From: Jannaschia sp. Os4
GTDB taxonomy: Bacteria; Pseudomonadota; Alphaproteobacteria; Rhodobacterales; Rhodobacteraceae
Length of the DNA: 64,000 nt
NCBI RefSeq assembly: GCF_016820245.1
Contig: NZ_JAFCAR010000003.1
Location: 1 to 64,000, forward strand
Direction of reading: 5' to 3'
The translations under genes and the position numbers were made by a program. This document shows, one piece after another, positions 48,071 through 64,000 of the stretch. The notes under the pieces were generated by a model. The model was not told the DNA's origin, did not search any database, and saw only the letters and a list, made by a program, of their open reading frames with translations. Every line of letters starts with the position of its first letter. Position 1 is the stretch's first letter.

Positions 48071-48088
48071 CCGCCCGAATTCGGGCGG
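48071..48088. repeat. 18-bp perfect palindrome
   Basis: CCGCCCGAATTCGGGCGG is a gapless perfect palindrome in the 188-base gap upstream of motB, downstream of the 139-residue protein gene. It could be a dimeric-regulator operator or part of a terminator; nothing else is seen in this gap. Confidence 0.5.
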
Positions 48089-48124
48089 CGCGGCGCAGGA
48101 CGGGCGCCGGCCCCGCGGTCCCCG

Positions 48125-48544: not shown

Positions 48545-48588
48545 CGCGTCGAATCCTAGCTATCGCCCCTCATTCTGGCCGCCACGTC

Positions 48589-48603
48589 TCAACCGTTCCT
48601 TAA
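48589..48603 (+). promoter_or_regulatory. CtrA-like box upstream of motA
   Basis: TCAA-CCGTTCC-TTAA is one mismatch from the CtrA consensus and lies 53 bases before the motA GTG start. It is placed to control motA and possibly the divergent 139-residue protein gene. Confidence 0.62.
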
Positions 48604-48656
48604 TGCCCACCGGGTCCATGTGCCCCGACGCGCCGCCGCGCGGAATGGAGACGCAC

Positions 48657-49526
48657 GTGACCCTCGCCCTCGGCCTCATCCTCGTGTTCGCGCTCGTCTT
48701 CGGGGGGTTCATGCTGTCGGGCGGCAAGATGGACATCGTCCTCCACGCCCTCCCCTACGAGGGGATGATGATCGGCGGCGGGGCGCTGGGGGCGTTCGTC
48801 ATCGCGAACTCCTTCCCCGTGATCCGCCGGTCGTTCGCGGGGGTGCTCAAGGTGCTCAAGGGCGCGAAGTGGAAGCGGTCCGACTACATGGACCTGCTCA
48901 TGCTCCTGTTCGAGCTGACGCGCCTCTACAAGGCGAAGGGGATCGTGGCGCTCGACGCGCATGTCGAGGCGCCAGGCGAGAGCGAGATCTTCGCGCGCTA
49001 TCCCAAGATACAGAAGGACAAGTTCGCCGTCGGCCTCATCGTCGACAGCTTCCGGATGCTGGCGATGAACTTCGACGACCGCCACCAGACCGAGGACCTG
49101 ATCGACCGGAAGATCCGCCAGCATCACCACGAGGTGCTGGCGCCCGCCAAGGCGATCCAGGTCGTCGCCGACGGGCTTCCGGCGATCGGGATCGTGGCGG
49201 CGGTGCTGGGGGTGATCAAGACGATGGCCTCGGTGGACAAGCCGCCGGAGGTGCTCGGTAAGATGATCGCGGGCGCCCTGGTGGGCACCTTCCTCGGGGT
49301 GTTCCTCGCCTACTGCATGGTCGCGCCGGTCTCCGGGCGCCTGTCCCAGATCGAGGAGGAGGACGGCGCCTTCTACGGCATCATCCGGGACGTGTTCGTC
49401 GCGATGGTCGCGGGCCATCCCCCCGAGGTCTGCATCGAGATCGGGCGCGCCGCCGTGCCGGGGCACATGAAGCCCGCCTTCGACGATATCGAGCAGGCGC
49501 AGACCGCGCTGGCGGCGCCCGCATGA
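48657..49526 (+). CDS. motA: Flagellar motor stator protein MotA
   Basis: A 289-residue four-helix stator protein. It starts VTLALGLILVFALVFGGFMLS (cut), with helix 2 at about residues 30-50, a large cytoplasmic loop with the charged residues that meet FliG (KRSDYMDLLMLLFELTRLYKA, cut), and helices 3 and 4 with LPAIGIVAAVLGVIKTMASVD (cut) and GALVGTFLGVFLAYCMVAPV (cut). GTG at 48657 is preferred because GGAG lies seven bases upstream; the ATG at 48645 would add four residues. Overlaps the FliJ-like gene (ATGA). Confidence 0.95.
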   Translation: MTLALGLILVFALVFGGFMLSGGKMDIVLHALPYEGMMIGGGALGAFVIANSFPVIRRSFAGVLKVLKGAKWKRSDYMDLLMLLFELTRLYKAKGIVALDAHVEAPGESEIFARYPKIQKDKFAVGLIVDSFRMLAMNFDDRHQTEDLIDRKIRQHHHEVLAPAKAIQVVADGLPAIGIVAAVLGVIKTMASVDKPPEVLGKMIAGALVGTFLGVFLAYCMVAPVSGRLSQIEEEDGAFYGIIRDVFVAMVAGHPPEVCIEIGRAAVPGHMKPAFDDIEQAQTALAAPA

Positions 49527-50095: not shown

Positions 50096-51715
50096 TCAGG
50101 AGAACCACCAGCGCTCGTGCACCTTGTTGCCGTCGCTGATCCAATTGGCCGCGACCGCGTCCTCGTGGGCCAGAGTGTTGGCATGGGCGTGGATGTAGTT
50201 GGCGAACATCGCGATCAACGCGCCGCCGTCGCTCTGCAGGAGGCGCTGCGCCTCGGAGTAGAGCGCGCCGCGCGACGCGTCGTCCGTCTCGGCCCGCGCC
50301 TGCACAACCACCTCGTTGAAGCGTTCGGCGGCCTCGCCGGTGCGCCAGTCGGTGTCGTTCCACTCCTGATCGGCGGTGTAGGCCGACGAGTACATCCAGT
50401 CCTGCGTCGGGCGCCCGCCCCAGTAGCAGGCGCACCACGGCTCCTTGTTCCAGACGTTTGACCAGTAGCCGTCCGAGGGGACGCGCTCGACCTGGATCTC
50501 GATGCCCGCCGCCGCCGCCGAGGCCGCGACCAGCTGCGCGGCGTCCACCGCGCCGGGGAAGGCCGCGTCGGCGGCGCGCAGCACGATGGGGCCGGAATGG
50601 CCGGACTTCTCGTAGTGCTCGCGCGCGCGCTCCGGGTCGTAGGAGTGGACCGGCAGGTCGGCGTCGAAGAACGGCATGGAGGCGTTGACGGGCACGTCGT
50701 TGCCCACCGTGCCCGCGCCCAGCAGGATCTTGTCGACCAGCTCTTGGCGGTTGATCGCGAACTTGAGGGCCATGCGCAGGTCGAAGCTCGAGAACGGCTC
50801 CGAGGTGACGCGCATCGGGAAGGTGTAGTGCTGCGTGCCGGTCGTCTGCAGGACGGTCAGGTTCGGCACCCGCTCCATCAGCGCGAGCGTGTTCGGCGTG
50901 ACGTTGTCGATGAAATCGACCTCGCCCGACATCAGCGCCTGCTGGCGCGCGGGCGCGTCGAGGATCGAGAGCAGGTGATACTCGTCGAAATGGGCGCGCC
51001 CCGCCTTCCAGTAGTTCGGGTTGCGCGTGTGGATGGCGCGGACGCCCGGCTCGAACTCCTGCACGACGTAGCCGCCGGTGCCGCCGGTCGAGGTCGGATC
51101 GACGTTGCCGTCGCCGTCCGACTCCATGATCAGCAGGTGGTAGTCGCTGACGATGAAGGGGAAGTCCGCGTTGGCCGCCGCTAAGGTGAAGACGACCGCA
51201 TCGCCGTCGATCGCGATGTCCTCGACCTGGGTCAGCAGGCCCTTGGCCGCCGAGGTGCTGGCCTCGCCGCGGTGGTAGTTGAAGGTCGCGACCACGTCCT
51301 CGGGCGTCAGCGTCTTGCCGGAATGGAATTCCACGCCCTGCCGGATGTTGAAGCGCCACGTGCGGGCGTCCTCGGTCTCGTAGGATTCGGCCAGTTCCGG
51401 GATCAGCTCGCCGGTGTTCGACACCTCGGTGAGGTGGTTGCCCCGCGTGTAGCACATGGAGGTCATGAAGCTGTTCTCGGCGGTGCCGGGATCGAGGCTG
51501 TCGGTCGTCGAGCCGTAGCCCGTGCCATGGCGGAACACGCCGCCCGACTGGGGGGTCTGCGCCATCGCGCGGCCCGACATCGAAAGGGCGGCGGGCACCG
51601 CGAGGCCGGCGGCGAGCGCGCGGGTCATGAACGTGCGGCGATCGATCCCGCGCGCCGTCAGCAGCTTGGCCTGCTCCGCGAGGTAGCGGGCCTTCTCGAA
51701 CTCTTTCGGATGCAT
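50096..51715 (-). CDS. ABC transporter substrate-binding protein, peptide/opine family (SBP_bac_5)
   Basis: A 539-residue periplasmic binding protein. Near residue 26 DRRTFMTRALAAGLAVPAA has a Tat-like twin-arginine leader, preceded by about 25 cytosolic-type residues. Family 5 features follow: FRHGTGYGSTTDSLDPGTAE, LIPELAESYETEDARTWRFN, EFHSGKTLTPEDVVATFNYH, DLRMALKFAINRQELVDKIL and the Trp-rich end. Such proteins bind peptides, opines, sugars or betaines. It is divergent from the permease genes by 168 bases and faces the carnitine-type catabolic genes, so a quaternary amine ligand is plausible. Confidence 0.9.
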   Translation of the reverse strand: MHPKEFEKARYLAEQAKLLTARGIDRRTFMTRALAAGLAVPAALSMSGRAMAQTPQSGGVFRHGTGYGSTTDSLDPGTAENSFMTSMCYTRGNHLTEVSNTGELIPELAESYETEDARTWRFNIRQGVEFHSGKTLTPEDVVATFNYHRGEASTSAAKGLLTQVEDIAIDGDAVVFTLAAANADFPFIVSDYHLLIMESDGDGNVDPTSTGGTGGYVVQEFEPGVRAIHTRNPNYWKAGRAHFDEYHLLSILDAPARQQALMSGEVDFIDNVTPNTLALMERVPNLTVLQTTGTQHYTFPMRVTSEPFSSFDLRMALKFAINRQELVDKILLGAGTVGNDVPVNASMPFFDADLPVHSYDPERAREHYEKSGHSGPIVLRAADAAFPGAVDAAQLVAASAAAAGIEIQVERVPSDGYWSNVWNKEPWCACYWGGRPTQDWMYSSAYTADQEWNDTDWRTGEAAERFNEVVVQARAETDDASRGALYSEAQRLLQSDGGALIAMFANYIHAHANTLAHEDAVAANWISDGNKVHERWWFS

Positions 51716-51883
51716 TCGTCTCTCCCTGTGCGCGCCCTCCCTCGTCTGGAGCGCGTCCCGGTCAGTAGACGTCACGTTTCCGCGCAGGTCAAAGGGCAAC
51801 GCCCCGGCCCCCGCGGCGGCGCGGGGGCACAAGCCCCTTGCGCCACCGCCGCGTTCCCCCATGCTGCGGGCGGGGGGAGAGAC

Positions 51884-52864
51884 ATGCATCCAGTGCTCAA
51901 GACGGTCCTGCAGCGGCTCGGCCTCGGCCTCGTGACGCTGTTCCTCGTCTCGGCCATCATCTTCGCCTCGATCGAGCTGCTGCCCGGCGACTTCGGCGAG
52001 GCGGTGCTGGGCCAGGCCGCGACGGAGGAGACGGTCGCCGCCTTCCGCGCGGAGCTGGGCCTCGATACGCCCGCGCCGCTGCGCTACGTGGAATGGATCG
52101 GCGCGGTCCTCCAAGGCGACCTCGGCACCTCCTTCTCGGGGCGCAACGCCAGCGGCGTGGACCGCTCCCGCCCGGTGGCCGACCTGATCGGGCCGCGGCT
52201 GGGCAACACGCTGTTCCTCGCGGCCTTCGCGGCGGTCATCTCCGTGCCCCTCGCGCTGATCCTCGGGATCACGGCGGCGCTGTGGCGCAACTCCCTCTAC
52301 GACCGCGCGGTCAACGCCGCGACGCTGACGACGATCTCCCTGCCCGAGTTCTTCGTGGCCTACCTGCTGATCCTGCTGCTCGGAACGCTCTTCCCGATCC
52401 TGCCGTCGCTCGCCAACGTCACGCCGGACATGCCGCTGCTGGAGCGGATCGAGCGCACCGCCCTGCCGGCCCTCACGCTTACGCTGGTGATCGTCGCGCA
52501 CATGATGCGCATGACGCGCGCCGCGATCATCAACCTGCTCGCCCAGCCCTACATCGAGATGGCGATCCTCAAGGGCGCCTCGCCTCGCACCGTGATCCTG
52601 AAGCACGCCCTGCCCAACGCATGGGCACCCATCGCGACCGTGATCGCCTTCAACCTCGCCTACCTCGTGGTGGGCGTGGTCGTCGTGGAGGTGGTGTTCG
52701 TCTATCCCGGCGTGGGCCAGTTGATGGTCGACGCGGTGACCACCCGCGACATCCCCGTGGTGCAGGCCTGCGCCCTGATCTTCGCGGCCACCTACATCCT
52801 GCTGAACCTGATCGCGGACATTGTGGGCATCGTGACCAACCCGAGGCTCCTGCACCCCCGATGA
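51884..52864 (+). CDS. ABC transporter permease, DppB-type
   Basis: A 326-residue inner-membrane protein with about six hydrophobic segments. It begins VLQRLGLGLVTLFLVSAIIF; the large periplasmic loop contains LLPGDFGEAVLGQAATEETV and a Gly-rich stretch; the EAA-like cytoplasmic loop reads MAILKGASPRTVILKHALPN. A start at ATG 51884 is preceded by GGGGGGAGAGAC. It overlaps the second permease by four bases. An 8-bp GC hairpin (51808-51827) lies in the upstream divergent region. Confidence 0.92.
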   Translation: MHPVLKTVLQRLGLGLVTLFLVSAIIFASIELLPGDFGEAVLGQAATEETVAAFRAELGLDTPAPLRYVEWIGAVLQGDLGTSFSGRNASGVDRSRPVADLIGPRLGNTLFLAAFAAVISVPLALILGITAALWRNSLYDRAVNAATLTTISLPEFFVAYLLILLLGTLFPILPSLANVTPDMPLLERIERTALPALTLTLVIVAHMMRMTRAAIINLLAQPYIEMAILKGASPRTVILKHALPNAWAPIATVIAFNLAYLVVGVVVVEVVFVYPGVGQLMVDAVTTRDIPVVQACALIFAATYILLNLIADIVGIVTNPRLLHPR

Positions 52865-53799
52865 CCGACCGCATCGCCCCCACCCCCGAGGCCGCCGCCC
52901 TCTCCGACCCCGCCGTCTCGGTCGTGGGCGACGCCCGCGTCCCGAAGACGTGGCGTGGGCGGGCATGGACGACGCTGCGCTCCGCCCCGCCCACGGCGGT
53001 CTTCGGGATGCTCGTGATCGCGGTCTACGTCGTGACGGCCGTCTTCGCGCCCCTGCTCGCCCCCTACGGCGAGGCGGCGGTGTTCCCGACGCCCTTCGAC
53101 GCATGGTCGTCCGAGCATCCGCTGGGGACGGACCAGATCGGGCGCGACGTCATGTCCCGCCTGATCTACGGCGCGCGCAACACGATGGGCATCGCCTTGG
53201 CCACCACGGTCCTGAGCTTCCTCATCGGCGGGGGGCTCGGCCTCTGGGCGGTGATCGCCCAAGGCTGGACGGACCAGATCCTCTCCCGCGTCGTCGACGT
53301 CCTGATGGCCATCCCCGCGCTGATCTTCGCGCTGATGCTCCTGTCGATCTTCGGCTCCTCGGTCCTCTCGCTCATCCTCATCATCGCCGTCCTCGACAGC
53401 ACGCGCGTCTTCCGCCTGACCCGCGCGGTCGGCATGGGCGTGGTCGTCATGGACTACGTCGAGGCCGCCCGCCTGCGCGGCGAGGGCCTCGGCTGGATCA
53501 TGCGCCGCGAGATCCTGCCCAACATCGCGCCGCCGCTGGTGGCGGAGTTCGGCCTGCGCTTCTCCTTCGTGTTCCTGACCATCGCGGCGCTCAGCTTCCT
53601 CGGCCTCGGCATCCAGCCCCCCCTCGCCGACTGGGGCTCCATGGTCCGCGACGGCGCCTCGATGATCCAGTTCGCGCCCTACGACCTCCGCATGGGCCTG
53701 ACGCCGTTCGTGCCCGCCGGCGCCATCGCGCTGCTGACCGTCGCGGTGAACTTCGTCGTCGACTGGCTCCTGCACCGTGCCTCCGGCCTGAAGGAGTAG
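52861..53799 (+). CDS. ABC transporter permease, DppC-type
   Basis: A 312-residue permease. After a polar 40-residue N-terminus the first membrane segment is followed by the DppC hallmark EHPLGTDQIGRDVMSRLIYG, with later segments and the cytoplasmic coupling loop EAARLRGEGLGWIMRREILPN (cut). IAALSFLGLGIQPPLADWGSM (cut) is also typical. It forms the channel with the DppB-type protein. The ATPase gene follows after four bases. Confidence 0.93.
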   Translation: MTDRIAPTPEAAALSDPAVSVVGDARVPKTWRGRAWTTLRSAPPTAVFGMLVIAVYVVTAVFAPLLAPYGEAAVFPTPFDAWSSEHPLGTDQIGRDVMSRLIYGARNTMGIALATTVLSFLIGGGLGLWAVIAQGWTDQILSRVVDVLMAIPALIFALMLLSIFGSSVLSLILIIAVLDSTRVFRLTRAVGMGVVVMDYVEAARLRGEGLGWIMRREILPNIAPPLVAEFGLRFSFVFLTIAALSFLGLGIQPPLADWGSMVRDGASMIQFAPYDLRMGLTPFVPAGAIALLTVAVNFVVDWLLHRASGLKE

Positions 53800-53803
53800 A
53801 GCG

Positions 53804-55396
53804 ATGGCCTCCCCCCTGCTGGAGATGAAGGACGTCCGCGTCGAGGGCCGCACCGGCGAGGCGTGGACCGAGATCGTGCACGGCGTCGACCTCACGCTGC
53901 ACCGCGGCGAGGTGCTGGGGCTGATCGGCGAATCCGGCGCGGGCAAGTCGACCCTCGGCCTGGCGGCGATGGGCTACGCCCGCCCCGGCTGCCGCATCTC
54001 GGGCGGGGCGATCACCTTCGACGGCATCGACCTGCGCGCGGCCTCCGACGCCACGCTGCGCGGCCTGTGGGGCGGGCGCATGGCCTATGTCGCGCAATCC
54101 GCCGCCGCCGCGTTCAACCCCGCCCACAGGCTCATCGACCAGACCGTCGAGGCCGCCGTGGCGCACGGCGCCCACGGGGGCGCGTCGGCCCGCGAGGACG
54201 CGGTGGCGCTCTACGAGGCGCTGCGCCTGCCGGACCCCGGCGAGATCGGCTTCCGCTACCCGCACCAGGTCTCGGGCGGTCAGCTCCAGCGCGTGATGAC
54301 CGCGATGGCGATGGCCGGGCGCCCCGACCTGATCGTCTTCGACGAGCCCACGACCGCGCTCGACGTCACCACCCAGGTCGGCGTGCTCAAGGCCATGCGC
54401 GACGCCGTGGAGCGGTTCGACACGGCGGCGATCTACATCACCCACGACCTCGCCGTCGTCGCCCAGATGGCGGACCGGATCAAGGTCCTGCGCTACGGCG
54501 ACGAGGTGGAGGAGGCCGAGACCCGGGCCATGCTCGACGCCCCCCGCGAGGACTACACCCGGTCGCTCTGGGCCGTGCGGTCCATCCGCAAGCCCGAGGT
54601 CACGGGCGGCGCGGTGCAGCTGGCGATCAAGGGCGTCGACGCGGCCTACGGCACCGCGAAGGTGCTGCACGACGTCTCCATCGCCGTGCCGAAGGGGCGC
54701 ACCGTCGCGGTGGTGGGCGAGTCCGGGTCCGGCAAGTCCACCGCCGCCCGGGTCGTCACCGGCCTCCTGCCGCCGACCTCCGGCACCGTCGAGTTCGACG
54801 GCGAGGCCCTGCCCCCCACGCTCAAGGCCCGCTCCAAGGAGCAGAAGCGCCGCCTGCAGATGATCTACCAGATGGCCGACACGGCCATGAACCCGAAGCA
54901 GACCATCGGCGAGATCATCGGTCGGCCCCTGTCCTTCTACCACGGCCTGTCCGGGGCCGAGCGCCGCGCCCGCGTGGCCGACCTGCTGGAGATGATCGAA
55001 CTTCCGCCCGACTACGCCGACCGCCTGCCGGGCGAGCTGTCGGGCGGCCAGAAGCAGCGCGTCTGCATCGCCCGCGCCTTGGCCGCCGAGCCGGACCTCA
55101 TCATCTGCGACGAGGTCACGAGCGCGCTCGACCAGATCGTGCAGGAGGGCATCCTGAAGCTGCTGATGCGGCTCCAGAAGGAGTTCGGCATCGCCTACCT
55201 CTTCATCACCCACGACATCGCCACCGTGGAGGCCATCGCCGACGAGATCGTCGTCATGAACCAAGGCCGCGTCGTGGAGCAGGGGCCGAAATCCGAGATC
55301 CTGTCGCCCCCGCACCCCGAGTACACCGAGCTGCTGCTGGCCTCCGTGCCCGAGATGGATCCCGACTGGCTGACCCGCCAGACCGAGGGGGCCTGA
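53804..55396 (+). CDS. ABC transporter ATPase with two fused nucleotide-binding domains
   Basis: A 530-residue protein joining DppD- and DppF-type ATPases. Domain 1: Walker A GESGAGKST, signature VSGGQLQR, Walker B LIVFDEPTTALD. Domain 2 (from about residue 270): Walker A GESGSGKST, signature LSGGQKQR, Walker B LIICDEVTSALD. Both sets of motifs look intact, though position 2 of the second D-loop region has V in place of P (DEVTSALD). It powers the importer formed with the two permeases. Its stop is one base before the convergent regulator gene. Confidence 0.94.
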   Translation: MASPLLEMKDVRVEGRTGEAWTEIVHGVDLTLHRGEVLGLIGESGAGKSTLGLAAMGYARPGCRISGGAITFDGIDLRAASDATLRGLWGGRMAYVAQSAAAAFNPAHRLIDQTVEAAVAHGAHGGASAREDAVALYEALRLPDPGEIGFRYPHQVSGGQLQRVMTAMAMAGRPDLIVFDEPTTALDVTTQVGVLKAMRDAVERFDTAAIYITHDLAVVAQMADRIKVLRYGDEVEEAETRAMLDAPREDYTRSLWAVRSIRKPEVTGGAVQLAIKGVDAAYGTAKVLHDVSIAVPKGRTVAVVGESGSGKSTAARVVTGLLPPTSGTVEFDGEALPPTLKARSKEQKRRLQMIYQMADTAMNPKQTIGEIIGRPLSFYHGLSGAERRARVADLLEMIELPPDYADRLPGELSGGQKQRVCIARALAAEPDLIICDEVTSALDQIVQEGILKLLMRLQKEFGIAYLFITHDIATVEAIADEIVVMNQGRVVEQGPKSEILSPPHPEYTELLLASVPEMDPDWLTRQTEGA

Positions 55397-55397
55397 C

Positions 55398-56288
55398 CTA
55401 CCGGAACGCCGACGGCGGCGCCCCCAGCGTGCGGCGCATCGCGCGGGCGAAGGCGCTGGCGTCCGCGTAGCCCGCCCGCTGCGCCGAGTCCGCCACCGAG
55501 GCCCCCGCCTCCAGCGCCCGCCGCCCCGCCTCCAGCCGCAGGCGCAAGTAGACCGCGCCGGGCGTCTCCCCGAGCGTCCGGGCGAACCGCCGCGCCAGCG
55601 CGCGCGGCGTCGCGCCCGCCCGCTGCGCCACCTCGCCCAAGGGCAGGGGCGCCTCGACGTTCGCCTCCATCACGGCCAGCGCTCGCGCCACCCTCCGGTC
55701 GGACGGCCCCGCCTGCGGCCCCGCCATGAACAGCGCCGCCACCGCCTGCGCCAGCGCCGCCCCGTGGCGGCGCCGGATCAGGTGGAGCACCAAGTCGAAC
55801 GCCGTCGTCGCGCCCCCGGCCGTCAGGCGCGGCCCGTCCTCGATCCACCGCTCCGGGCGCAGCTCGACCTCCGGGAACGCCTCCGCGAAGTCCCGCCGCA
55901 GGTCCGTGTGGATCGTCGCCGCCCGCCCCTTCAGCAGCCCCGCCTGCGCCATCAGCCACGCGCCTGCGTCCAGCCCCGCGACCGCGCCGTAGCGCACCGC
56001 CGCCCGCCGCAGGTCGGCGCCGTAGGCCCCCAGCGCGACGTGCCCGTAGCTCGGCACCAGCATCAGAAGGTCGCCCCCCGGCGCGTCGGCCAGCCGCCCC
56101 TCCGGCGAGACCGGCAGCCCCGAAGACGACGCCACCGCCCGCCCGTCCGGCGTCAGCAGGTGCCAGCGGTAGAGCGTCCGCCCCGACAGGTCGTTCGCCG
56201 CCCGTAGCGGCTCCAGCGCATTGGCGAGGCAGTGGTTCGAGAACCGCGGATATAGGCAGAGGCCGACGATTTCGGGACGAGGCTGCAT
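55398..56288 (-). CDS. GlxA-type transcriptional regulator, CdhR-like
   Basis: A 296-residue activator with an N-terminal DJ-1/PfpI amidotransferase-like domain (EIVGLCLYPRFSNHCLANALE, cut; LMLVPSYGH; LDAGAWLMAQAGLLKGRAAT, cut) and a C-terminal AraC DNA-binding domain (VARALAVMEANVEAPLPLGEV cut, AQRAGATPRALARRFART). The same build is found in CdhR, the carnitine-catabolism regulator of Pseudomonas, and GbdR. It is divergent from the BKACE gene by 73 bases. A GTG six bases upstream would add two residues. Confidence 0.85.
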   Translation of the reverse strand: MQPRPEIVGLCLYPRFSNHCLANALEPLRAANDLSGRTLYRWHLLTPDGRAVASSSGLPVSPEGRLADAPGGDLLMLVPSYGHVALGAYGADLRRAAVRYGAVAGLDAGAWLMAQAGLLKGRAATIHTDLRRDFAEAFPEVELRPERWIEDGPRLTAGGATTAFDLVLHLIRRRHGAALAQAVAALFMAGPQAGPSDRRVARALAVMEANVEAPLPLGEVAQRAGATPRALARRFARTLGETPGAVYLRLRLEAGRRALEAGASVADSAQRAGYADASAFARAMRRTLGAPPSAFR

Positions 56289-56361
56289 GATCACGGCAGT
56301 TTCGGCACGGCGCGCCGCGATGCAAGCGGCCTATCCTCCGCCCGCGCCACAGGAGGTCCCG

Positions 56362-57270
56362 ATGCCGCTCCAGATGTCCCGCGAGGTCTTTGTCACCTGC
56401 GCCGTCACCGGCTCCGGCTCGACGCAGGACCGCAGCCCGCACGTCCCGCGCTCGCCCGAGCAGATCGCCCACAGCGCCATCGCGGCCGCCCGCGCGGGCG
56501 CCGCCATCGTGCACTGCCACGTCCGCGACCCGGAGACCGGCGCGCCGTCGCGCGATCTGCGCCTCTACCGCGAGGTCACCGACCGCATCCGCGACGCGGA
56601 GGTGGACGTGGTGCTGAACCTTACCGCGGGCATGGGCGGCGACATCGTGTTCGGCGGCACCGACGCGCCGCTGCCGGTCGCGGAGGGCACCGACATGGTC
56701 GGCGCGGAGGAGCGGGTGGCCCACGTGGCCGAATGCCTGCCCGAGATCTGCACCCTCGACTGCGGCACCATGAACTTCGCCGAGGCCGACTACGTGATGA
56801 CGAACACGCCCGGCATGCTGCGGGCGATGGGGCGCATGATGACCGACCTCGGGGTGAAGCCCGAGATCGAGGCGTTCGACACCGGCCACCTCTGGTACGC
56901 CAAGCAACTGGTGGCCGACGGCATCCTCGACGCCCCCGCCCTCGTGCAGCTCTGCATGGGGGTCCCGTGGGGGGCGCCGAACGACCTCAACACCTTCATG
57001 GCGATGGTGAACGCCGTGCCGGACGACTGGACCTTCTCCGCCTTCTCGCTGGGCCGGGACCAGATGGCCTATGCCGCCGCCGCCGTGCTGGCGGGAGGGC
57101 ACGTGCGGGTGGGGCTGGAGGACAACCTGATGCTCGACCGCGGCGTGCTGGCGACGAACGCGCAACTGGTCGAGCGGGCCGTCGAGATCGTCGAGCGGAT
57201 GGGCGCCCGTGTGATGACGCCCGCGCAGGTGCGCGACAAGCTGGGCCTGACCAAGCGGGCGCCGTCGTGA
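56362..57270 (+). CDS. Beta-keto acid cleavage enzyme (BKACE), probably 3-dehydrocarnitine
   Basis: A 302-residue zinc enzyme of the BKACE (formerly DUF849) family, which cleaves beta-keto acids with acetyl-CoA to give acetoacetate and a new acyl-CoA. Seen are VTCAVTGSG, SPHVPRSPEQIAHSAIAAAR, the metal motif AIVHCHVRDPETGAPS, LTAGMGG, LDCGTMNFA and EIEAFDTGHL. The ribosome binding site AGGAGGT is strong. Fused carnitine dehydrogenase two genes on suggests 3-dehydrocarnitine as substrate, giving betainyl-CoA and acetoacetate. The family is sure; the substrate is inferred. Confidence 0.88.
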   Translation: MPLQMSREVFVTCAVTGSGSTQDRSPHVPRSPEQIAHSAIAAARAGAAIVHCHVRDPETGAPSRDLRLYREVTDRIRDAEVDVVLNLTAGMGGDIVFGGTDAPLPVAEGTDMVGAEERVAHVAECLPEICTLDCGTMNFAEADYVMTNTPGMLRAMGRMMTDLGVKPEIEAFDTGHLWYAKQLVADGILDAPALVQLCMGVPWGAPNDLNTFMAMVNAVPDDWTFSAFSLGRDQMAYAAAAVLAGGHVRVGLEDNLMLDRGVLATNAQLVERAVEIVERMGARVMTPAQVRDKLGLTKRAPS

Positions 57271-58010
57271 CACGGCGCGTCGTCGTCACGGCGGGCGGCG
57301 CGGGGATCGGGGCGGCGCTGGTCCGGCGCTTCGCGGCGGACGGCGCGCGGGTCGCTTATTGCGACCTCGCCCCCGGCGACGCGCCGGACGGCGTGCTGGG
57401 CGTGGAGGCCGACGTGGCGGACGAGGCGTCGATGGATGGCTTCCTCGCCCGTGCCCATGACCACCTCGGCGGAGTCGACGTCCTCTGCGCCAACGCGGGC
57501 ACCGGCGGGCCGGCAGCCCCGATCGAGGACATGGCCTACGGCGACTGGCGCGCCTGCCTCGACGTGAACCTCGGCGGCGCGTTCCTCGCCTGCCGGTGGG
57601 CCGCCCGCGCGATGAAGGGGCAGGGGTCGGGCTGCATCCTCCTCACCTCCTCCACGGCGGGCCAATGGGGCATCCCCTCGCGGTCGCCCTACGTGGCCGC
57701 GAAGTGGGGCGTGCTCGGCCTGACGAAGACCCTCGCCGCCGAACTCGGCCCCCACGGCATCCGGGTGAACGCGATCTGCCCCGGCGCGGTGGAGGGCGAG
57801 CGGATGGAGCGCGTCGTGGCGATGGAGGCGGCGGCGCGGGGCGCGGACCCCGAGGCGATCCGCGCCCTCTACGCCGAGGGGACGTCGATGCGCCGCTGGG
57901 TCACGGCGGAGGACATCGCCGCCACGGCGGCCTTCCTCGCCTCGGACGCGGCGCGGACGATCAGCGGACAGGCCCTCGCGGTCGACGGCAACACGGAGCG
58001 GGTGACATGA
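57267..58010 (+). CDS. Short-chain dehydrogenase, possible D-carnitine dehydrogenase
   Basis: A 247-residue classical SDR from GTG overlapping the BKACE stop. Nucleotide-binding TAGGAGIGAALVRRF, then CANAGTGGP (NAG motif), catalytic Ser in LLTSSTAGQWG, YVAAKWG (Tyr-x-x-x-Lys) and GIRVNAICPGAVEG. SDR-type D-carnitine dehydrogenases have been described in Rhizobiales, and this gene sits between BKACE and the L-carnitine dehydrogenase fusion, so oxidising the other enantiomer is a reasonable hypothesis. Other beta-hydroxy acids are possible. Confidence 0.85.
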   Translation: MTRRVVVTAGGAGIGAALVRRFAADGARVAYCDLAPGDAPDGVLGVEADVADEASMDGFLARAHDHLGGVDVLCANAGTGGPAAPIEDMAYGDWRACLDVNLGGAFLACRWAARAMKGQGSGCILLTSSTAGQWGIPSRSPYVAAKWGVLGLTKTLAAELGPHGIRVNAICPGAVEGERMERVVAMEAAARGADPEAIRALYAEGTSMRRWVTAEDIAATAAFLASDAARTISGQALAVDGNTERVT

Positions 58011-59395
58011 AGGCGGCGGTGATCGGTGGCGGCGTGATCGGCGGCGGCTGGGCCGCGCGCTTCCTGCTCAACGGGTGGGAAGTGGCGGTGCACGACCCCG
58101 ACCCCGAGGCGGCGCGCAAGATCGGCGCGGTGCTCGACGGGGCGCGGCGCGCGCTGCCCATGCTCTACGACGTGGCCCTGCCGCCGGAGGGGGCGCTGAC
58201 CTTCCATGAGCGGCTGGAGGACGCGGTGGCGGGCGCCGATTGGGTGCAGGAGAGCGTGCCCGAGCGCCTCGACCTCAAGCACCGCGTCCTCGCTGCGGTG
58301 CAGCATGCGACGGACGCCCCCATCGGCTCCTCCACCTCCGGCTTCACGCCGACCGAGCTGTCCGAGGGGGCGCCCGACCCGTCGCGCATCGTCGTCGCCC
58401 ACCCGTTCAACCCGGTCTACCTGCTGCCCCTCGTCGAACTCGTCGGCCATGCGGGCACCGACCCGTCCGCGCTGGACGACGCCGAGGCCAAGCTGCGCGG
58501 CGTGGGCATGTACCCCCTCCGCGTCCGCGCCGAGCTTCCCGCCCACATCGCCGACCGCTTCCTCGAGGCCGTCTGGCGCGAGGCGCTGTGGATGGTCCGC
58601 GACGGGCAGGCCACGACCTCCGAGATCGACGAGGCGATCCGCATGGGCTTCGGCCTCCGCTGGGCGCAGATGGGCCTGTTCGAGACCTACCGCATCGCGG
58701 GCGGCGAGGCGGGGATGGCCCACTTCATCGGCCAGTTCGGCCCCGCGCTGGCATGGCCGTGGACCAAGCTGACGGACGTGCCGGACCTGACGCCGGACCT
58801 GATCGAGACGATCGCCGTCCAGTCCGACGCCCAGTCCGGGGACCGCACGATCCGCGAGTTGGAGCGCGAGCGCGACGACAACCTCGTGGGCATCCTCCGG
58901 GGGCTGAAGGCGCGGGGCCGCGCGGCGGGCGCGGTGATCGCCGCGCACGAGGCGGCGCTGATGCCGCCCGTCCCCGCGGGGCGCGTGCTGCGCACGCAGG
59001 ACCGCACCGTCCCCGTCGACTGGACCGACTACAACGGCCACATGAACGAAGGCCGCTATGGGCAGGTCATGTCCGACGCCTCCGAGGGCGTGCTGCGCGC
59101 CATCGGCACCCCGCCCGAGGAGACGGACGCCACCGGCCTCACGTGGTTCACCGTCGAGACGCGCATCTCCTACCGCCACGAGACCCACGCGGGCGAGCGC
59201 TTCACCGTCGACACGCGCGTCGTGGAGGGCGGCGGCAAGAAGCTGCGGCTCGCCCACGAGATGACGCGCGCCGACGGCACGCTCCTGGCCGAGGGCGAGC
59301 AGCTCCTCCTCCATGTCGATCTCGCCACCCGCCGCTCCGCCCCCCCGCCCGATCACGTGGCGCGGGCCATCGCCGACCTGCTGGAGGCCCCATGA
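58007..59395 (+). CDS. Carnitine 3-dehydrogenase fused to betainyl-CoA-type thioesterase
   Basis: A 462-residue fusion. Residues 1 to about 315 are a 3-hydroxyacyl-CoA-dehydrogenase-like Rossmann protein: AVIGGGVIGGGWAARFL, SSTSGFTPTEL, VVAHPFNPVYLLPLVELVG with the active-site His, and GFGLRWAQMGLFETYRIAGG (cut), as in carnitine 3-dehydrogenase. Residues from about 328 are a hot-dog thioesterase: VPVDWTDYNGHMNEGRYGQV (cut) with VETRISYRHETHAGE. In Pseudomonas these are separate genes (cdhA, cdhB). Together they oxidise carnitine and hydrolyse betainyl-CoA to glycine betaine, with BKACE acting between. Overlaps its neighbours by four bases on both sides. Confidence 0.88.
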   Translation: MKAAVIGGGVIGGGWAARFLLNGWEVAVHDPDPEAARKIGAVLDGARRALPMLYDVALPPEGALTFHERLEDAVAGADWVQESVPERLDLKHRVLAAVQHATDAPIGSSTSGFTPTELSEGAPDPSRIVVAHPFNPVYLLPLVELVGHAGTDPSALDDAEAKLRGVGMYPLRVRAELPAHIADRFLEAVWREALWMVRDGQATTSEIDEAIRMGFGLRWAQMGLFETYRIAGGEAGMAHFIGQFGPALAWPWTKLTDVPDLTPDLIETIAVQSDAQSGDRTIRELERERDDNLVGILRGLKARGRAAGAVIAAHEAALMPPVPAGRVLRTQDRTVPVDWTDYNGHMNEGRYGQVMSDASEGVLRAIGTPPEETDATGLTWFTVETRISYRHETHAGERFTVDTRVVEGGGKKLRLAHEMTRADGTLLAEGEQLLLHVDLATRRSAPPPDHVARAIADLLEAP

Positions 59396-60552
59396 ACTTC
59401 GCCCTCACCCCCGAGCAGCAGATGATCGTCGACACGGTCCGCGACTTCGTGGAGCGCGAGATCTACCCCCACGAGGCGGAGGTGGAGCGGACCGGGACGG
59501 TGCCCGACGACCTCGCCCGCGCCATCATGGACAAGACGCGGTCCCTCGGGTTCTGGGCCGCCAACTTCCCCGAGGAGGTGGGCGGCGCGGGCCTGTCGCA
59601 CCTCGAGTTCGCCTTGCTGGAGCGCGAACTCGGGCGCGGGTCGATGGCGCTGACGCACTTCTTCGGACGCCCCCAGAACATCCTCATGGCCTGCGAGGGC
59701 GAGCAGCGGGAGCGCTACCTCCTGCCCGCCGTGCGCGGCGAGCGGCTCGACGCGCTGGCCATGACCGAGCCCGACGCAGGCTCCGACGTGCGCGGCATGA
59801 AGTGCAGCGCCGTGCGCGACGGCTCGGACTGGATCGTCAACGGCTCCAAGCACTTCATCTCGGGCGCGGCGCATGCCGACTTCTTCATCGTCTTCGTGGC
59901 CACCGGCGAGGACGACACGCCCGCCGGGCCGAAGAAGCGCATCACCTGCTTCCTCGTGGACCGCGGCCATCCCGGCTTCGAGGAGCGGCCCGGCTACAAC
60001 TCGGTCAGCCACCGGGGCTACCCCAACTCGATCCTCACCTTCGACGACTGCCGACTGCCCGCCGGGGCCGTGCTGGGCGAGGTCGACGGCGGCTTCGCGG
60101 TGATGAACGAATGGCTCTACGCCACGCGCATCACCGTCGCCGCGATGGCCGTGGGCCGGGCGCGCCGGGCCTTCGACCTCGCCGTGGACCACGCCGCGCA
60201 GCGCAGGCAGTTCGGCCAGCCCATCGCGCGGTTCCAAGGCGTCAGCTTCCAGATCGCGGACATGATCACCGAGATCGACGCCGCCGACTGGCTGACCCTC
60301 GCGGCGGCGTGGCGGCTGGACGAGGGGCTGCCCGCCAACCGCGAGATCGCGAGCGCGAAGCTCTACGCCTCCGAGATGCTGGCGCGGGTCACGGACGCCG
60401 CGCTGCAGGTCCACGGCGGGATGGGCCTCATGGACGACCTGCCGCTGGAGCGGTTCTGGCGCGACGCGCGGGTCGAGCGCATCTGGGACGGGACGAGCGA
60501 GATCCAGCGTCACATCGTCGGGCGGGAGATCTTCCGGCCCCTCGGTGCCTGA
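59392..60552 (+). CDS. Acyl-CoA dehydrogenase, possibly gamma-butyrobetainyl-CoA
   Basis: A 386-residue flavoprotein of the acyl-CoA dehydrogenase family. Conserved pieces: LTPEQQMIVDTVRDFVEREI, AMTEPDAGSD (FAD motif), WIVNGSKHFISGA, RRQFGQPIARFQGVSFQIAD (cut), QVHGGMGLMDDLPLERFWRDA (cut) and the C-terminal catalytic base in RIWDGTSEIQRHIVGREIF. In the context of a carnitine gene set it would dehydrogenate gamma-butyrobetainyl-CoA to crotonobetainyl-CoA, as CaiA-type enzymes do. The substrate is inferred from neighbours only. Confidence 0.87.
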   Translation: MNFALTPEQQMIVDTVRDFVEREIYPHEAEVERTGTVPDDLARAIMDKTRSLGFWAANFPEEVGGAGLSHLEFALLERELGRGSMALTHFFGRPQNILMACEGEQRERYLLPAVRGERLDALAMTEPDAGSDVRGMKCSAVRDGSDWIVNGSKHFISGAAHADFFIVFVATGEDDTPAGPKKRITCFLVDRGHPGFEERPGYNSVSHRGYPNSILTFDDCRLPAGAVLGEVDGGFAVMNEWLYATRITVAAMAVGRARRAFDLAVDHAAQRRQFGQPIARFQGVSFQIADMITEIDAADWLTLAAAWRLDEGLPANREIASAKLYASEMLARVTDAALQVHGGMGLMDDLPLERFWRDARVERIWDGTSEIQRHIVGREIFRPLGA

Positions 60553-62572
60553 GGGGGCGCGCGTGGTCGGACGGGCGGGAGCACTGCCCCCGGACCCCCG
60601 GAGCATTTCCGGAACATCGAAGGGGTTGTCGCGTCTTCTGGCGCCCCGGACGCTCGCGGTCCTTGGGGGGCGGTGGGCCGAGGCCGTCGTCGCCAAGGCC
60701 ACCGCTGCCGGCATGACCGTCTGGCCCGTCCATCCGACGCGGCGGGAGATGGGCGGCGTCCCGTGCGTCCCCGCCCTCGCCGACCTCCCCGCCGCGCCGG
60801 ACGCCGTCTTCCTCGGCGTGAACCGCGACGCGACCGTCCCGCTCGTGGCCGACCTCACCGCGATGGGCGCGGGCGGGGCGGTGGTGTTCGCCTCGGGCTG
60901 GGCCGAGACGGGGGACGTGGCCCGCCAAGACGCGCTCGTCGCGGCGGCGGGCGGCATGCCGATCCTCGGGCCGAACTGCTACGGGCTGCTGAACTACCTC
61001 GACGGCGCGGCGGTCTGGCCGGACGAGCACGGGGGGATGCCCGTGGCGCGGGGCGTGGGGCTGATCGTCCAGTCCTCCAACCTCGGGATCAACCTCACCA
61101 TGCAGGCGCGCGCCCTGCCGCTGGGGCGCCTCGCCTGCCTCGGGAACGCGGCGCAGGTGGGGGTGGCCGACCTCGGCCACGCTATGCTGGACGACCCGCG
61201 GGTCACGGCGCTGGGGCTCCATCTGGAAGGCATGGACCCCGCCCTCGCCGATCTGTGCGAGCGCGCGCAGGCGACCGGGCGCGGCGTCGTGGTCCTCGCC
61301 GGCGGGCGCAGCGAAGGGGGGCGGGCGGCGGCGGTCTCCCACACCGCCGCGCTGACCGGCGACGGGACCGCGACGGCGGCCTTCCTGCGCAGGATCGGCG
61401 CGGTGCAGGTGCGCAGCCCCTCCGAGTTCCTCGAAGCCCTCAAGGTCGCCCACGCCCTCGGCCCCGTCCGGCCCCGGCGCGTCGCCGTCATGGCCTGCTC
61501 CGGCGGGGAGGCGGGGCTGGCCGCCGACCTCGCGCAGGATCTCGGCCTCGACCTGCCTCCGCCGGACGCCGCGACCGCCGCCGCCTTGGCGGACGAGCTG
61601 GGGCCGATGGTCCGTCCCGCCAACCCGCTGGACTACCACACCTTCGTCTGGGGCGACCGCGCCCGCATGGCCCGCACCTTCCGCACGATGGCGCGGGGCT
61701 ACGACGCCGCGCTGGTGGTCATCGACCCGCCCGACCGCACGGAGGCCAGCGGCTTCGAGCCCGCGCTCGACGCCATCGCGGACGGGGCGGACCTGCCGCT
61801 GATCCCCGTGGCCTCCATCCCCGAGGCCATGTCCGAGGCCCGCGCCGCGTCGCTCATGGACCGGGGCCTCTGCCCCTTGTCCGGGCTGGAGACCGCGCTG
61901 TCGGTCATGGCCGCCCACGCCCGCGCGGGCACGCCTGGCCCGTGGCGGCCCGTCCCGCCGCAGCCGCCCCGCGCGACCCGCCTCGTCCCCGAGGATGCTG
62001 CTAAGCGGGCCGTCGCGGACGCCGTCCCCGTCCCGAGGGGCGTCACCGCCCCCGACCTCGCCACCCTCGCCGACCGTGCCCGCCCCCTCGCCGCTCCCTT
62101 CGCTCTCAAGGCCCTCGGCCACGCCCACAAGACCGAGGCCGGGGCCGTCCGCCTCCACGTCCGCGACCTCGCCGCCGCCGCGCCGATGGATGGGACCGGC
62201 TACCTCGCCGAGGAGATGGCCGAGGGGGTCGAGATGCTCGTGGGCCTGCGCCGCGACGCGATCCTCGGCGCGACCCTCACCCTCGGCTGGGGCGGGACGC
62301 GGACCGAACTGATCGGCGACACCGCCACCCTGATCCTTCCCGCGACGCCCGACGAGATCGGCGCCGCCCTCGCCGGTTGCCGCGTCGACGCCCTGCTGCG
62401 CGGCTATCGCGGGGCGCCCCCGGCGGACCGCCCCGCCGCCATCGCCGCCATCCACGCGCTCTGCGACCTGTTCCTCGCCCGCCCCGCGTGGGAGGAACTC
62501 GAGATCAACCCCCTGATGGCCGGCCCCGCGCGCGCCGTGGCCGTCGACGTCCTGCTGCGGGAGGCCCCATGA
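60545..62572 (+). CDS. NDP-forming acyl-CoA ligase (acetate-CoA ligase family)
   Basis: A single-chain NDP-forming acyl-CoA synthetase of up to 675 residues. Order: CoA-binding domain (LLAPRTLAVLGG, then VWPVHPTRREMGG, PDAVFLGVNRD), succinyl-CoA-ligase-like domains with GPNCYGLLN and the phosphohistidine motif VSHTAALTGD, then an ATP-grasp domain from about residue 470 with APFALKALGHAHKTEAGAV and EELEINPLM. It would activate the betaine acid, the job done by AMP-forming CaiC in enteric bacteria. The GTG at 60545 overlaps the previous stop; family similarity starts at TTG 60626, so the first 27 codons may be untranslated repeat-like sequence. Confidence 0.86.
   Translation: MPEGARVVGRAGALPPDPRSISGTSKGLSRLLAPRTLAVLGGRWAEAVVAKATAAGMTVWPVHPTRREMGGVPCVPALADLPAAPDAVFLGVNRDATVPLVADLTAMGAGGAVVFASGWAETGDVARQDALVAAAGGMPILGPNCYGLLNYLDGAAVWPDEHGGMPVARGVGLIVQSSNLGINLTMQARALPLGRLACLGNAAQVGVADLGHAMLDDPRVTALGLHLEGMDPALADLCERAQATGRGVVVLAGGRSEGGRAAAVSHTAALTGDGTATAAFLRRIGAVQVRSPSEFLEALKVAHALGPVRPRRVAVMACSGGEAGLAADLAQDLGLDLPPPDAATAAALADELGPMVRPANPLDYHTFVWGDRARMARTFRTMARGYDAALVVIDPPDRTEASGFEPALDAIADGADLPLIPVASIPEAMSEARAASLMDRGLCPLSGLETALSVMAAHARAGTPGPWRPVPPQPPRATRLVPEDAAKRAVADAVPVPRGVTAPDLATLADRARPLAAPFALKALGHAHKTEAGAVRLHVRDLAAAAPMDGTGYLAEEMAEGVEMLVGLRRDAILGATLTLGWGGTRTELIGDTATLILPATPDEIGAALAGCRVDALLRGYRGAPPADRPAAIAAIHALCDLFLARPAWEELEINPLMAGPARAVAVDVLLREAP
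60588..60622 (+). repeat. Possible degenerate copy C of the intergenic repeat
   Basis: CCCCGGACCCCCGGAGCATT followed by TCCGGAACATCGAAGG resembles copy A (67-110). It lies exactly in the non-homologous first codons of the acyl-CoA ligase gene, favouring a later start there. Confidence 0.35.
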
Positions 62573-63345
62573 GCGTCACCATCGAAGGCACCGGCCCCGT
62601 CCGCGAGGTCGTGCTCGACCGCCCCCCCGCCAACGCGATCGACCTCGCCACCTCGCGCGAGCTGGGCGAGGCGTTCCGGCGCGTGCGCGACGACGACGCC
62701 TGCCGCGTCGTCCTGCTCCGCACCGGGGGCGCGAAGTTCTTCTGCCCCGGCTGGGACCTCAAGGCCGCCGCGGGCGGCGACGCGGTGGACGGCGACTACG
62801 GCGTGGGCGGGTTCGGCGGGCTGCAGCAGCTGCCGTTCATGGAGAAGCCCGTCATCGCCGCCGTGCAGGGCATCTGCTGCGGGGGCGGCCTCGAACTGGC
62901 GTTGTCGTGCGACCTGATCGTCGCGTCCGAGACCGCGACCTTCGCCCTGCCGGAGATCCGCTCCGGCACCGTGGCCGACGCCGCCTCCATCGCGCTGCCC
63001 AAGCGCATCCCCTACCACGTCGCGATGGACCTGCTGCTCACGGGCCGCTGGTTCGACGCCGCCGAGGCTCACCGCTGGGGCCTGCTGCGCGAGGTGACCG
63101 CGCCCGAGGCCCTGCTCCCCACCGCCCGCGCCTTGGCCGACCACCTCGCCAGCGGCCCGCCCCTCGTCTACGCTGCGATCAAGGAGATCGTGCGCGAGGC
63201 CGAGGCGGAGCGCTTCGGCGACATGCTGAACCGCGTCACCCGGCGGCAGGTGCGGACCGTCGACCGGCTCTACGCCTCCGAGGACCAGCGCGAAGGGGCG
63301 CGCGCCTTCGCCGAGAAGCGCGACCCCGTGTGGAAGGGACGATGA
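62569..63345 (+). CDS. Enoyl-CoA hydratase/isomerase, CaiD-like candidate
   Basis: A 258-residue crotonase-fold enzyme. Near the N-terminus VREVVLDRPPANAIDLAT; the CoA-binding/oxyanion region VQGICCGGGLELALSCDLIV (cut); then ASETATFALPEIRSGTVADAA with the expected acidic residues, and LTGRWFDAAEAHRWGLL. In this operon it would hydrate crotonobetainyl-CoA to L-carnitinyl-CoA, as CaiD does. General enoyl-CoA hydratase activity is the alternative. It overlaps the ligase gene by four bases and is followed one base later by the aldolase gene. Confidence 0.87.
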   Translation: MSVTIEGTGPVREVVLDRPPANAIDLATSRELGEAFRRVRDDDACRVVLLRTGGAKFFCPGWDLKAAAGGDAVDGDYGVGGFGGLQQLPFMEKPVIAAVQGICCGGGLELALSCDLIVASETATFALPEIRSGTVADAASIALPKRIPYHVAMDLLLTGRWFDAAEAHRWGLLREVTAPEALLPTARALADHLASGPPLVYAAIKEIVREAEAERFGDMLNRVTRRQVRTVDRLYASEDQREGARAFAEKRDPVWKGR

Positions 63346-63346
63346 C

Positions 63347-64000
63347 ATGAAGGACACGCTTGCCGCCGACATGACCGAGGCCGAGATCGCCGAGGCCCGC
63401 CGCGACCTCGCCGCCACGCTGCGCTGGGCCGCCCGCGAGGAGCTGCACGAGGCGGTGGCCAACCACTTCAGCCTCGCCGTCGACGCCGCGGGCCGGCGCT
63501 TCCTGATGAACCCGAACCAGCGCCACTTCGCCCGCGTGCGCGCCTCGGACCTCCTGCTGATCGACGCGGACGACCCGGCCACGATGGACCGGCCCGACGC
63601 GCCCGACCCCACCGCGTGGGGCCTGCACGGCGCGATCCACCGGGCCGTGCCGCACGCGCGCTGCGTGATGCACCTGCACCCGCCCTACGCCACCGTGCTG
63701 GCGTCGCTGCAGGACAGCCGCCTGCCCGCGATCGACCAGAACACCGCGATCTTCCACGACCGCGTGGTGATCGACGAGGGCTACGGCGGCATGGCCTTCG
63801 AGGCCGAGGGCGCGCGCTGCGCCGCGCTGCTGGCGGACCCGAGGCACAAGACGATGGTGATGGGGTCGCACGGCGTCCTGACGCTGGGCGACACGGTGGC
63901 CGACTGCTGGAACCGCATGTGGTATCTGGAACGGGCCTGCCGCACCTACGTGATGGCGCTCCAAACCGGCCGGCCCATCCGCCGCCTCTCCGACGCCGTG
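63347..64000 (+). CDS. Class II aldolase/adducin family protein (cut by window end)
   Basis: The first 218 residues of a class II aldolase-fold protein; the gene continues beyond the window. The zinc ligands appear as CVMHLHPPYATVL (two His) and MVMGSHGVLTLG (third His), with VANHFSLAV and a conserved acidic residue in the middle. Members cleave or decarboxylate sugar phosphates or hydroxy acids; many are called only aldolase/adducin-like. Its role in a betaine pathway is not obvious. Start ATG 63347 follows the hydratase stop by one base, so it belongs to the operon. Confidence 0.85.
   Translation, partial: MKDTLAADMTEAEIAEARRDLAATLRWAAREELHEAVANHFSLAVDAAGRRFLMNPNQRHFARVRASDLLLIDADDPATMDRPDAPDPTAWGLHGAIHRAVPHARCVMHLHPPYATVLASLQDSRLPAIDQNTAIFHDRVVIDEGYGGMAFEAEGARCAALLADPRHKTMVMGSHGVLTLGDTVADCWNRMWYLERACRTYVMALQTGRPIRRLSDAV

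Follow-up and report, generated by a model that had tools for sequence, protein, structure and literature searches.

In Sinorhizobium meliloti the degradation of gamma-butyrobetaine to glycine betaine reportedly proceeds by five enzymes in seven steps, characterised by Bazire et al. in 2019 (J Bacteriol), and in Pseudomonas aeruginosa carnitine catabolism is regulated by CdhR, a protein of the AraC family. Here we describe a gene island of Jannaschia sp. Os4 and compare it with these systems. The window examined, with a G+C content of 72.7%, makes up the initial 64 kb of contig C3, the assembly totalling 3.54 Mb; the island in it contains a putative operon for gamma-butyrobetaine and carnitine degradation, which ends in the gene of a class II aldolase-like protein, named ALD2 here. 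For S. meliloti PMC12482172, citing the 2019 work, assigns both the step from carnitine to 3-dehydrocarnitine and that from betainyl-CoA to glycine betaine to SM2011_c01638; for P. aeruginosa it gives a carnitine dehydrogenase and a BKACE, with DhcAB for the last step. BcoAB of S. meliloti was employed as gamma-butyrobetaine:CoA ligase (PMC8364193). In addition, an island of Arctic SAR11 bacteria (PMC12421898) lists a carnitine dehydrogenase (CDH), a BKACE, a class II aldolase, a 3-hydroxyisobutyrate dehydrogenase, an aldehyde dehydrogenase, a choline dehydrogenase, two gamma-butyrobetaine dioxygenases, ABC transporter genes and a separate thioesterase. This paper was the sole instance found in a literature search for a class II aldolase beside carnitine genes; literature listings on hydroxytrimethyllysine aldolase, on beta-alanine betaine and on CocE together with carnitine contained nothing decisive.

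The operon of Jannaschia sp. Os4 probably encodes an aerobic gamma-butyrobetaine/carnitine route of the S. meliloti kind. The assignment is based on gene content, gene order, family membership and shared neighbourhoods, from which every substrate and reaction named below is deduced. Open reading frames and profile searches located 12 genes of the island at 50096-64000, and the twelve adjacent genes of the original prediction (importer, regulator and seven enzyme genes) were all found in place. The features of the island and of its continuation on the contig are the following.

50096..51715, minus strand: substrate-binding protein, family 5 (Dpp/Opp type); PF00496, 235 bits
51884..52864, plus strand: ABC permease, DppB type; PF00528, 110 bits, and PF19300
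52861..53799, plus strand: ABC permease, DppC type; PF00528, 102 bits, and PF12911
53804..55396, plus strand: fused double ATPase, DppDF type; two ABC_tran domains and oligo_HPY
55398..56294, minus strand: GlxA/AraC-family regulator (CdhR/GbdR-like), divergent from the enzyme operon; HTH_18, 70 bits
56356..57270, plus strand: BKACE, putatively for 3-dehydrocarnitine cleavage; PF05853, E 3e-102
57267..58010, plus strand: short-chain dehydrogenase (SDR); SDR domains
58007..59395, plus strand: carnitine 3-dehydrogenase fused to a 4HBT thioesterase (CDH-TE); NF005716, with 3HCDH_N, 3HCDH and 4HBT_2
59392..60552, plus strand: acyl-CoA dehydrogenase (ACAD), putative gamma-butyrobetainyl-CoA dehydrogenase; PF00441, PF02770, PF02771
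60545..62572, plus strand: ADP-forming acyl-CoA ligase, putative gamma-butyrobetaine:CoA ligase; CoA_binding_2, Succ_CoA_lig, ATP-grasp_5
62569..63345, plus strand: enoyl-CoA hydratase, putative crotonobetainyl-CoA hydratase, after its best NCBIfam match
63347..64000, continuing to contig position 64108, plus strand: class II aldolase-like ALD2; NF005689 (PRK07490), PF00596
Contig C3 65342-67318 (L004:17343-19319), just beyond the window: CocE/NonD hydrolase
L005:286-1812, after the CocE/NonD hydrolase: M81 (MlrC-like) peptidase

From BKACE through the hydratase the enzyme genes overlap by 4, 4, 4, 8 and 4 bases, with the start codons chosen by us, and ALD2 starts 1 base after the hydratase stop, which bears out the prediction that the seven genes overlap or nearly touch. 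Because of these overlaps we infer that they form one transcription unit. The reading frame of ALD2 ends 108 bases beyond the window, and the neighbourhood extends further with a convergent aminotransferase, the CocE/NonD hydrolase and the M81 peptidase. Upstream of the island, at 46995-49526, MotB-like (minus strand) and MotA-like (plus strand) flagellar motor frames were recognised by eye.

Compared with the reference gene set, the operon lacks none of the five enzymes that lead from gamma-butyrobetaine to glycine betaine. In the proposed route the ADP-forming ligase would convert gamma-butyrobetaine to gamma-butyrobetainyl-CoA, ACAD would oxidise this to crotonobetainyl-CoA and the hydratase would yield L-carnitinyl-CoA. 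The thioesterase domain of CDH-TE would then release L-carnitine, which the dehydrogenase domain would oxidise to 3-dehydrocarnitine. With acetyl-CoA, BKACE would cleave 3-dehydrocarnitine to betainyl-CoA and acetoacetate, and the thioesterase of CDH-TE would finally set free glycine betaine from betainyl-CoA. The island thus has in common with the S. meliloti pathway the ligase, ACAD, hydratase, dehydrogenase-thioesterase and BKACE as well as the products glycine betaine and acetoacetate. It differs in that the SDR and ALD2 are part of the operon and that a Dpp-type importer and a CocE/NonD hydrolase adjoin it, a comparison made at the level of gene sets. With P. aeruginosa it shares the carnitine dehydrogenase, the BKACE and a regulator of the AraC family, but instead of DhcAB for the last step it has the fused thioesterase. 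The SAR11 island likewise combines CDH, BKACE and a class II aldolase with ABC transporter genes, the aldolases being likened by name, whereas it has a separate thioesterase, two gamma-butyrobetaine dioxygenases and, among the genes listed, no acyl-CoA activation genes (PMC12421898).

CDH-TE reaches 648.9 bits against NF005716 (carnitine 3-dehydrogenase), above the curated cut-off of 592, and BKACE is a full-length member of PF05853 (342 bits, profile positions 2-274 of 274); at 648.9 bits and an E-value of 3e-102, respectively, chance is no explanation for these matches. The best NCBIfam match of BKACE, NF052387 (3-keto-5-aminohexanoate cleavage enzyme of lysine fermentation), stays at 236.5 bits below its cut-off of 382. 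A grouping of BKACE with non-carnitine subfamilies, which would have spoken against the route, was not seen: when judged by identity and neighbourhood, against CDH-TE loci rather than characterised references, it reaches 74.7-87.4% identity to the closest BKACE of each locus in all but one of the 80 best CDH-TE loci, compared with 31 and 35% to the two other BKACEs of the Jannaschia genome. The proposed comparison with the characterised CaiA and CaiD families gave no membership, as ACAD (178 bits against the CaiA model NF002885, cut-off 540) and the hydratase (264 bits against the CaiD model NF002936, cut-off 500) both score far too low. The best NCBIfam match of the hydratase is nevertheless crotonobetainyl-CoA hydratase (264 bits, cut-off 500). 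An anaerobic pathway of the Cai type was rejected on the CaiA and CaiD scores.

To describe the conservation of the set, the best 80 of at least 592 confirmed CDH-TE loci were compared, some of which are shortened by contig ends; a gene was counted as present at 35% identity or more over more than half the length. ACAD occurs in 30, the ligase in 28, the hydratase in 28, an SDR match in 38 and a regulator match in 51 of the 80 loci. All five core enzymes are found together in 28/80 loci (24/64 once loci shorter than 15 kb are left aside). Order and strand are identical in 22 of these 28, 11 of which have the SDR inside. The complete set, which the original prediction called less familiar in combination with this transporter and the aldolase, is not rare as far as its five enzymes are concerned. 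The core of the predicted route is probably right: its five enzymes are present, with CDH-TE above the cut-off and BKACE grouping with carnitine loci. As the five core genes match the S. meliloti set, however, the route itself is already known; the aldolase has no place in the predicted route, and the importer could not be assigned to carnitine.

Among 149 genomes of the family, sampled as one per genus, 113 contain CDH-TE relatives (in a few the match is only partial), and within the genus CDH-TE is present in 7/20 genomes, including the one studied here. In the other six, the 19.0-19.5 kb fetched round CDH-TE yielded no ACAD, ligase or hydratase (the activation genes). Because the complete island is patchy within the genus, its distribution would suit a horizontal gain. 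Two single observations were made on CDH-TE relatives. The record of locus L088 is titled Nocardioides marinus, yet its BKACE and CDH-TE are 82% and 60% identical to those of the window, and the assembly is possibly mislabelled or mixed. At G022:C1:2243561-2243863, near the full gene, residues 6-105 of CDH-TE are matched a second time with 65% identity, perhaps owing to a partial duplication.

Alternatively, only BKACE and CDH-TE could be the carnitine pair, whereas ACAD, ligase and hydratase serve another short betaine or acyl substrate. We consider this improbable. It would fit that the activation genes are often missing beside BKACE and CDH-TE, as the locus counts above and the six other loci of the genus show, and that ACAD and the hydratase stay below the Cai cut-offs, with ACAD scoring best against acryloyl-CoA reductase. 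On the other hand, in 22/28 loci the activation genes come after BKACE and CDH-TE with unchanging order and strand, the hydratase matches crotonobetainyl-CoA hydratase best, and S. meliloti provides a precedent. Weighing against the gamma-butyrobetaine route, the best NCBIfam match of ACAD is acryloyl-CoA reductase (304 bits, cut-off 640), which scores higher than CaiA, and among the core enzymes conservation is lowest for the ligase, with 36-62% identity in the CDH-TE loci, so that its substrate is the least sure.

The SDR passes none of the 25 NCBIfam models shown, and its best solved chains are a 3-ketoacyl-ACP reductase and a quinuclidinone reductase, accompanied by many other reductases. 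It may be a D-carnitine or 3-hydroxybutyrate dehydrogenase. A search for acetoacetyl-CoA synthetase in the same genome gave eight matches, none over the cut-off, and in 14 control genomes no match exceeded it either. The homocysteine methyltransferase family is represented by two places over the cut-off, which is compatible with the use of glycine betaine and not specific for it.

The divergent GlxA-type regulator probably controls the operon; against the GbdR model NF052371 it scores 160 bits (cut-off 480). The assignment of the importer to carnitine, part of the original prediction, is doubtful. Its fused ATPase passes the cut-offs of two nickel-importer ATPase models (TIGR02769, 405.6 vs 332.6 bits; TIGR02770, 355.9 vs 318.7 bits), scores which are raised by the presence of two ATPase domains in one protein. 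The binding protein remains below the nickel-importer cut-offs (133 of 600 and 87 of 393 bits), the permeases reach at best 238 of 350 and 189 of 300 bits, and neither passes any of the models shown.

The binding protein is paired more regularly with CocE. For this comparison gene pairs within 25 kb were counted in the 149 genomes without tree correction, the expected numbers assume 4.0 Mb genomes and random placement, and the counts for the binding protein cover the matches listed only. Binding protein and CocE are paired in 48 of the 68 genomes containing them (1.8 expected), usually at a distance of about 2 kb, binding protein and CDH-TE in 13/100 (1.7 expected), and CocE and CDH-TE in 7/65 (1.2 expected). 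In Jannaschia sp. Os4 the carnitine operon is located between the importer and CocE, and carnitine genes also share one locus with importer and CocE in L217, which comes from a different family within the class. Of the 80 best CDH-TE loci 4 have the importer, and 2 of these also have CocE in the fetched stretch. The CocE protein itself passes TIGR00976 (222 bits, cut-off 66) and has no obvious signal peptide, as judged by eye. Elsewhere importer and CocE usually travel together, and a conjugate, perhaps a carnitine or choline ester, would probably be taken up and then hydrolysed in the cell. Against this reading stand the nickel-importer scores of its ATPase and the two CDH-TE loci with importer (L103, L108) that are without CocE in the fetched stretch.

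ALD2 passes NF005689 (PRK07490) with 374 bits at a cut-off of 260, as does a Sulfitobacter relative with 332 bits, and the family model bears the name 'hypothetical protein' only. In an alignment of 43 rows (42 relatives from the fetched loci and the protein of the window) His94, His98, His109, His111, His175, Asp143, Glu154 and Ala90 are invariant in 43/43 rows. His109, His111 and His175 correspond to the three metal-binding histidines of FucA-type aldolases, matched via alignments with solved relatives and the known motif. The FucA-type catalytic glutamate appears to be absent, as its position is held in all 43 rows by Ala90, which we take to match the catalytic Glu73 of E. coli FucA from the motif rather than an alignment with FucA. 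PMC5216522 names Glu73 as the catalytic residue of E. coli FucA and describes pyruvic oxime dioxygenase as an Fe(II) enzyme of the class II aldolase superfamily that keeps the three histidines and not Glu73. Because of the apparently absent glutamate and of this precedent in the superfamily, the word aldolase in the name of ALD2 is not to be read as its function.

The nearest solved relatives of ALD2 are 3ocr, NovR, 4xxf (labelled fuculose-1-phosphate aldolase) and beta-adducin, followed by TqaM. NovR (E 2e-17) and TqaM (E 6e-13) are among ten distinct solved sequences matching at E<=1e-10; both share the superfamily with ALD2 at distant similarity only, and pyruvic oxime dioxygenase is likened to it by description. 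Matches to the PhtC and OxoTetrPhDc decarboxylase models are weak and far below the cut-off.

ALD2 relatives are found in 95/149 family genomes, 90 of which also contain CDH-TE (Fisher test 1.4e-12, kinship not corrected). With the same 25 kb counts, ALD2 is close to CDH-TE in 9 of the 90 genomes that have the two genes (1.26 expected; 8 when the genome studied here is left out), to CocE in 11/58 (1.16 expected) and to the binding protein in 10/86 with both among the matches listed (1.48 expected), the latter two including the present genome. In L185, from another genus, BKACE, SDR, CDH-TE, ACAD, ligase, hydratase and then ALD2 follow each other on one strand, with an opposite-strand frame of 349 residues before ALD2 and CocE and the M81 peptidase beyond BKACE. 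In L144 ALD2 is followed by ACAD, ligase and hydratase, and three genomes (L191-L196) have larger islands with a choline-dehydrogenase-like gene, importer, CocE and carnitine operon; the regions L185-L204 were picked partly for ALD2 near CDH-TE, which biases any rate taken from them.

A gamma-butyrobetaine-type dioxygenase adjoins ALD2 in 13 regions (L147, L158, L159, L177, L178, L179, L181, L184, L186, L187, L188, L200 and L201). None of the scores of the L147 and L177 dioxygenases reaches a cut-off; they are highest against TmpA and favour the TmpA/gamma-butyrobetaine type over trimethyllysine dioxygenase, and the latter was rejected as partner of ALD2 on these scores. A tree built from the 43 rows places the proteins linked to a dioxygenase at two positions and puts that of the window into a well-supported group of 21. 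Two changes of the dioxygenase label are needed on this tree, of which the well-supported branches alone force one, and a single origin of the link is possible.

Several observations weigh against a firm tie of ALD2 to the carnitine operon. It occurs in 0/80 of the best CDH-TE loci, in 0/9 further ones (L168-L176) and in 0/14 others (L210-L223), and 81/90 genomes with both genes have no such pair within 25 kb. Among 20 ALD2 regions taken by similarity (20 of 22 matches outside the present genome) 1 has the activation genes and 3 have a dioxygenase alongside. In the genome studied here no dioxygenase partner was found, in searches lacking a positive control, so that its absence is not shown. 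Within the sample the link between ALD2 and carnitine genes is significant, though loose, and would fit a gene acting in quaternary-amine metabolism more widely than in the carnitine operon.

Some further regions with ALD2 relatives were noted on plasmids; 8 of 25 plasmid records with ALD2 were read, some because the record also held a carnitine dehydrogenase, so that rates from them are biased. On a Palleronia plasmid (L178:22861-23595) a gene of the ALD2 kind adjoins a dioxygenase, and a second, different class II aldolase-like gene, 30% identical to ALD2, stands directly behind the carnitine dehydrogenase. On a Pseudomonas aeruginosa plasmid (L180:8010-8738) an ALD2 relative stands amid an aldehyde dehydrogenase, a GlxA regulator, a choline dehydrogenase and a dioxygenase of the aromatic-ring-hydroxylating type. 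A cluster on a Shinella plasmid (L182:848-16513) with hydratase, ligase, two hydroxyacyl-CoA dehydrogenases, GcvT, an ALD2 relative, BKACE and a Dpp-type importer may represent a related but different betaine route. The aminotransferase gene beside ALD2 of Jannaschia sp. Os4 (contig C3 64096-65451 at most, L004:16097-17452, minus strand) is convergent with it and overlaps it by 13 bases at its end; its best NCBIfam match is GntC, a PLP (pyridoxal phosphate) cyclodehydratase, below the cut-off.

ALD2 is probably a metal-dependent enzyme for C-C cleavage or decarboxylation of a trimethylammonium acid. We infer as the most likely mechanism the decarboxylation, oxidative or plain, of a trimethylammonium hydroxy- or oxo-acid, followed in our order by the decarboxylation of 3-dehydrocarnitine or a relative with an enzyme like 3-hydroxyisobutyrate dehydrogenase, a passenger gene, and the retro-aldol cleavage of a hydroxylated betaine.

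A more far-reaching reading is a tentative proposal, to which we give rather little confidence. PRK07490 proteins might be betaine-specific metal oxygenases or decarboxylases that, together with a gamma-butyrobetaine-type dioxygenase, degrade trimethylammonium carboxylic acids to the shorter glycine betaine, first by hydroxylation adjacent to the carboxylate and then by loss of CO2. In the genome studied here, where no dioxygenase was found, the acid would come from another source. The proposed pair of dioxygenase and ALD2 would do for carboxylates what the TmpA/TmpB route does for phosphonates. A chemical model could be TqaM, which according to PMC11880133 converts 3-amino-2-hydroxy-3-methylbutanoate to 2-aminoisobutyrate; the equivalent step on 2-hydroxy-3-trimethylaminopropionate would give glycine betaine.

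ALD2 could also be a metal-dependent beta-keto acid decarboxylase that acts beside a 3-hydroxyisobutyrate-dehydrogenase-like enzyme, for example from 3-dehydrocarnitine to trimethylaminoacetone, which we regard as possible though unlikely. A gene for such a dehydrogenase is located near ALD2 in L147, L158, L159, L179 and L188 and also stands in the SAR11 gene list (PMC12421898), and decarboxylases occur within the superfamily, as the weak PhtC and OxoTetrPhDc matches indicate. However, the window has no such dehydrogenase beside ALD2, 3-dehydrocarnitine is already used by BKACE, and the scores against the decarboxylase models are far under the cut-off.

That ALD2 is a passenger, placed behind the hydratase gene by chance, is conceivable but doubtful. 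The zero counts in all three sets of other CDH-TE loci would agree with it, as would a search of 19 other genomes of the genus, in which no ALD2 match exceeded 55% identity. Against a passenger speak the spacing of a single base to the hydratase in the operon, the second genus with ALD2 behind the same gene set (L185), the excess of close pairs across the 149 genomes and the class II aldolase listed for the SAR11 island (PMC12421898).

An aldolase acting on a hydroxylated betaine, for example on 3-hydroxy-trimethyllysine to feed gamma-butyrobetaine, is quite improbable: the dioxygenase–ALD2 gene pairs and the aldehyde dehydrogenase close by in L147 and L179 would suit it, but the dioxygenases of L147 and L177 resemble the TmpA/gamma-butyrobetaine type more than trimethyllysine dioxygenase, the FucA-type catalytic glutamate appears to be missing, and the known hydroxytrimethyllysine aldolases use PLP.

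For the family, the carnitine dehydrogenase fusion is widespread, with relatives in 113/149 sampled genera. The part of the island worth following is ALD2, which is common in the family (95/149) while its family model carries no name beyond 'hypothetical protein'. Identifying what it catalyses could extend the degradation of quaternary amines in bacteria of the Rhodobacteraceae type, and perhaps in SAR11, by one more step or by a new route.

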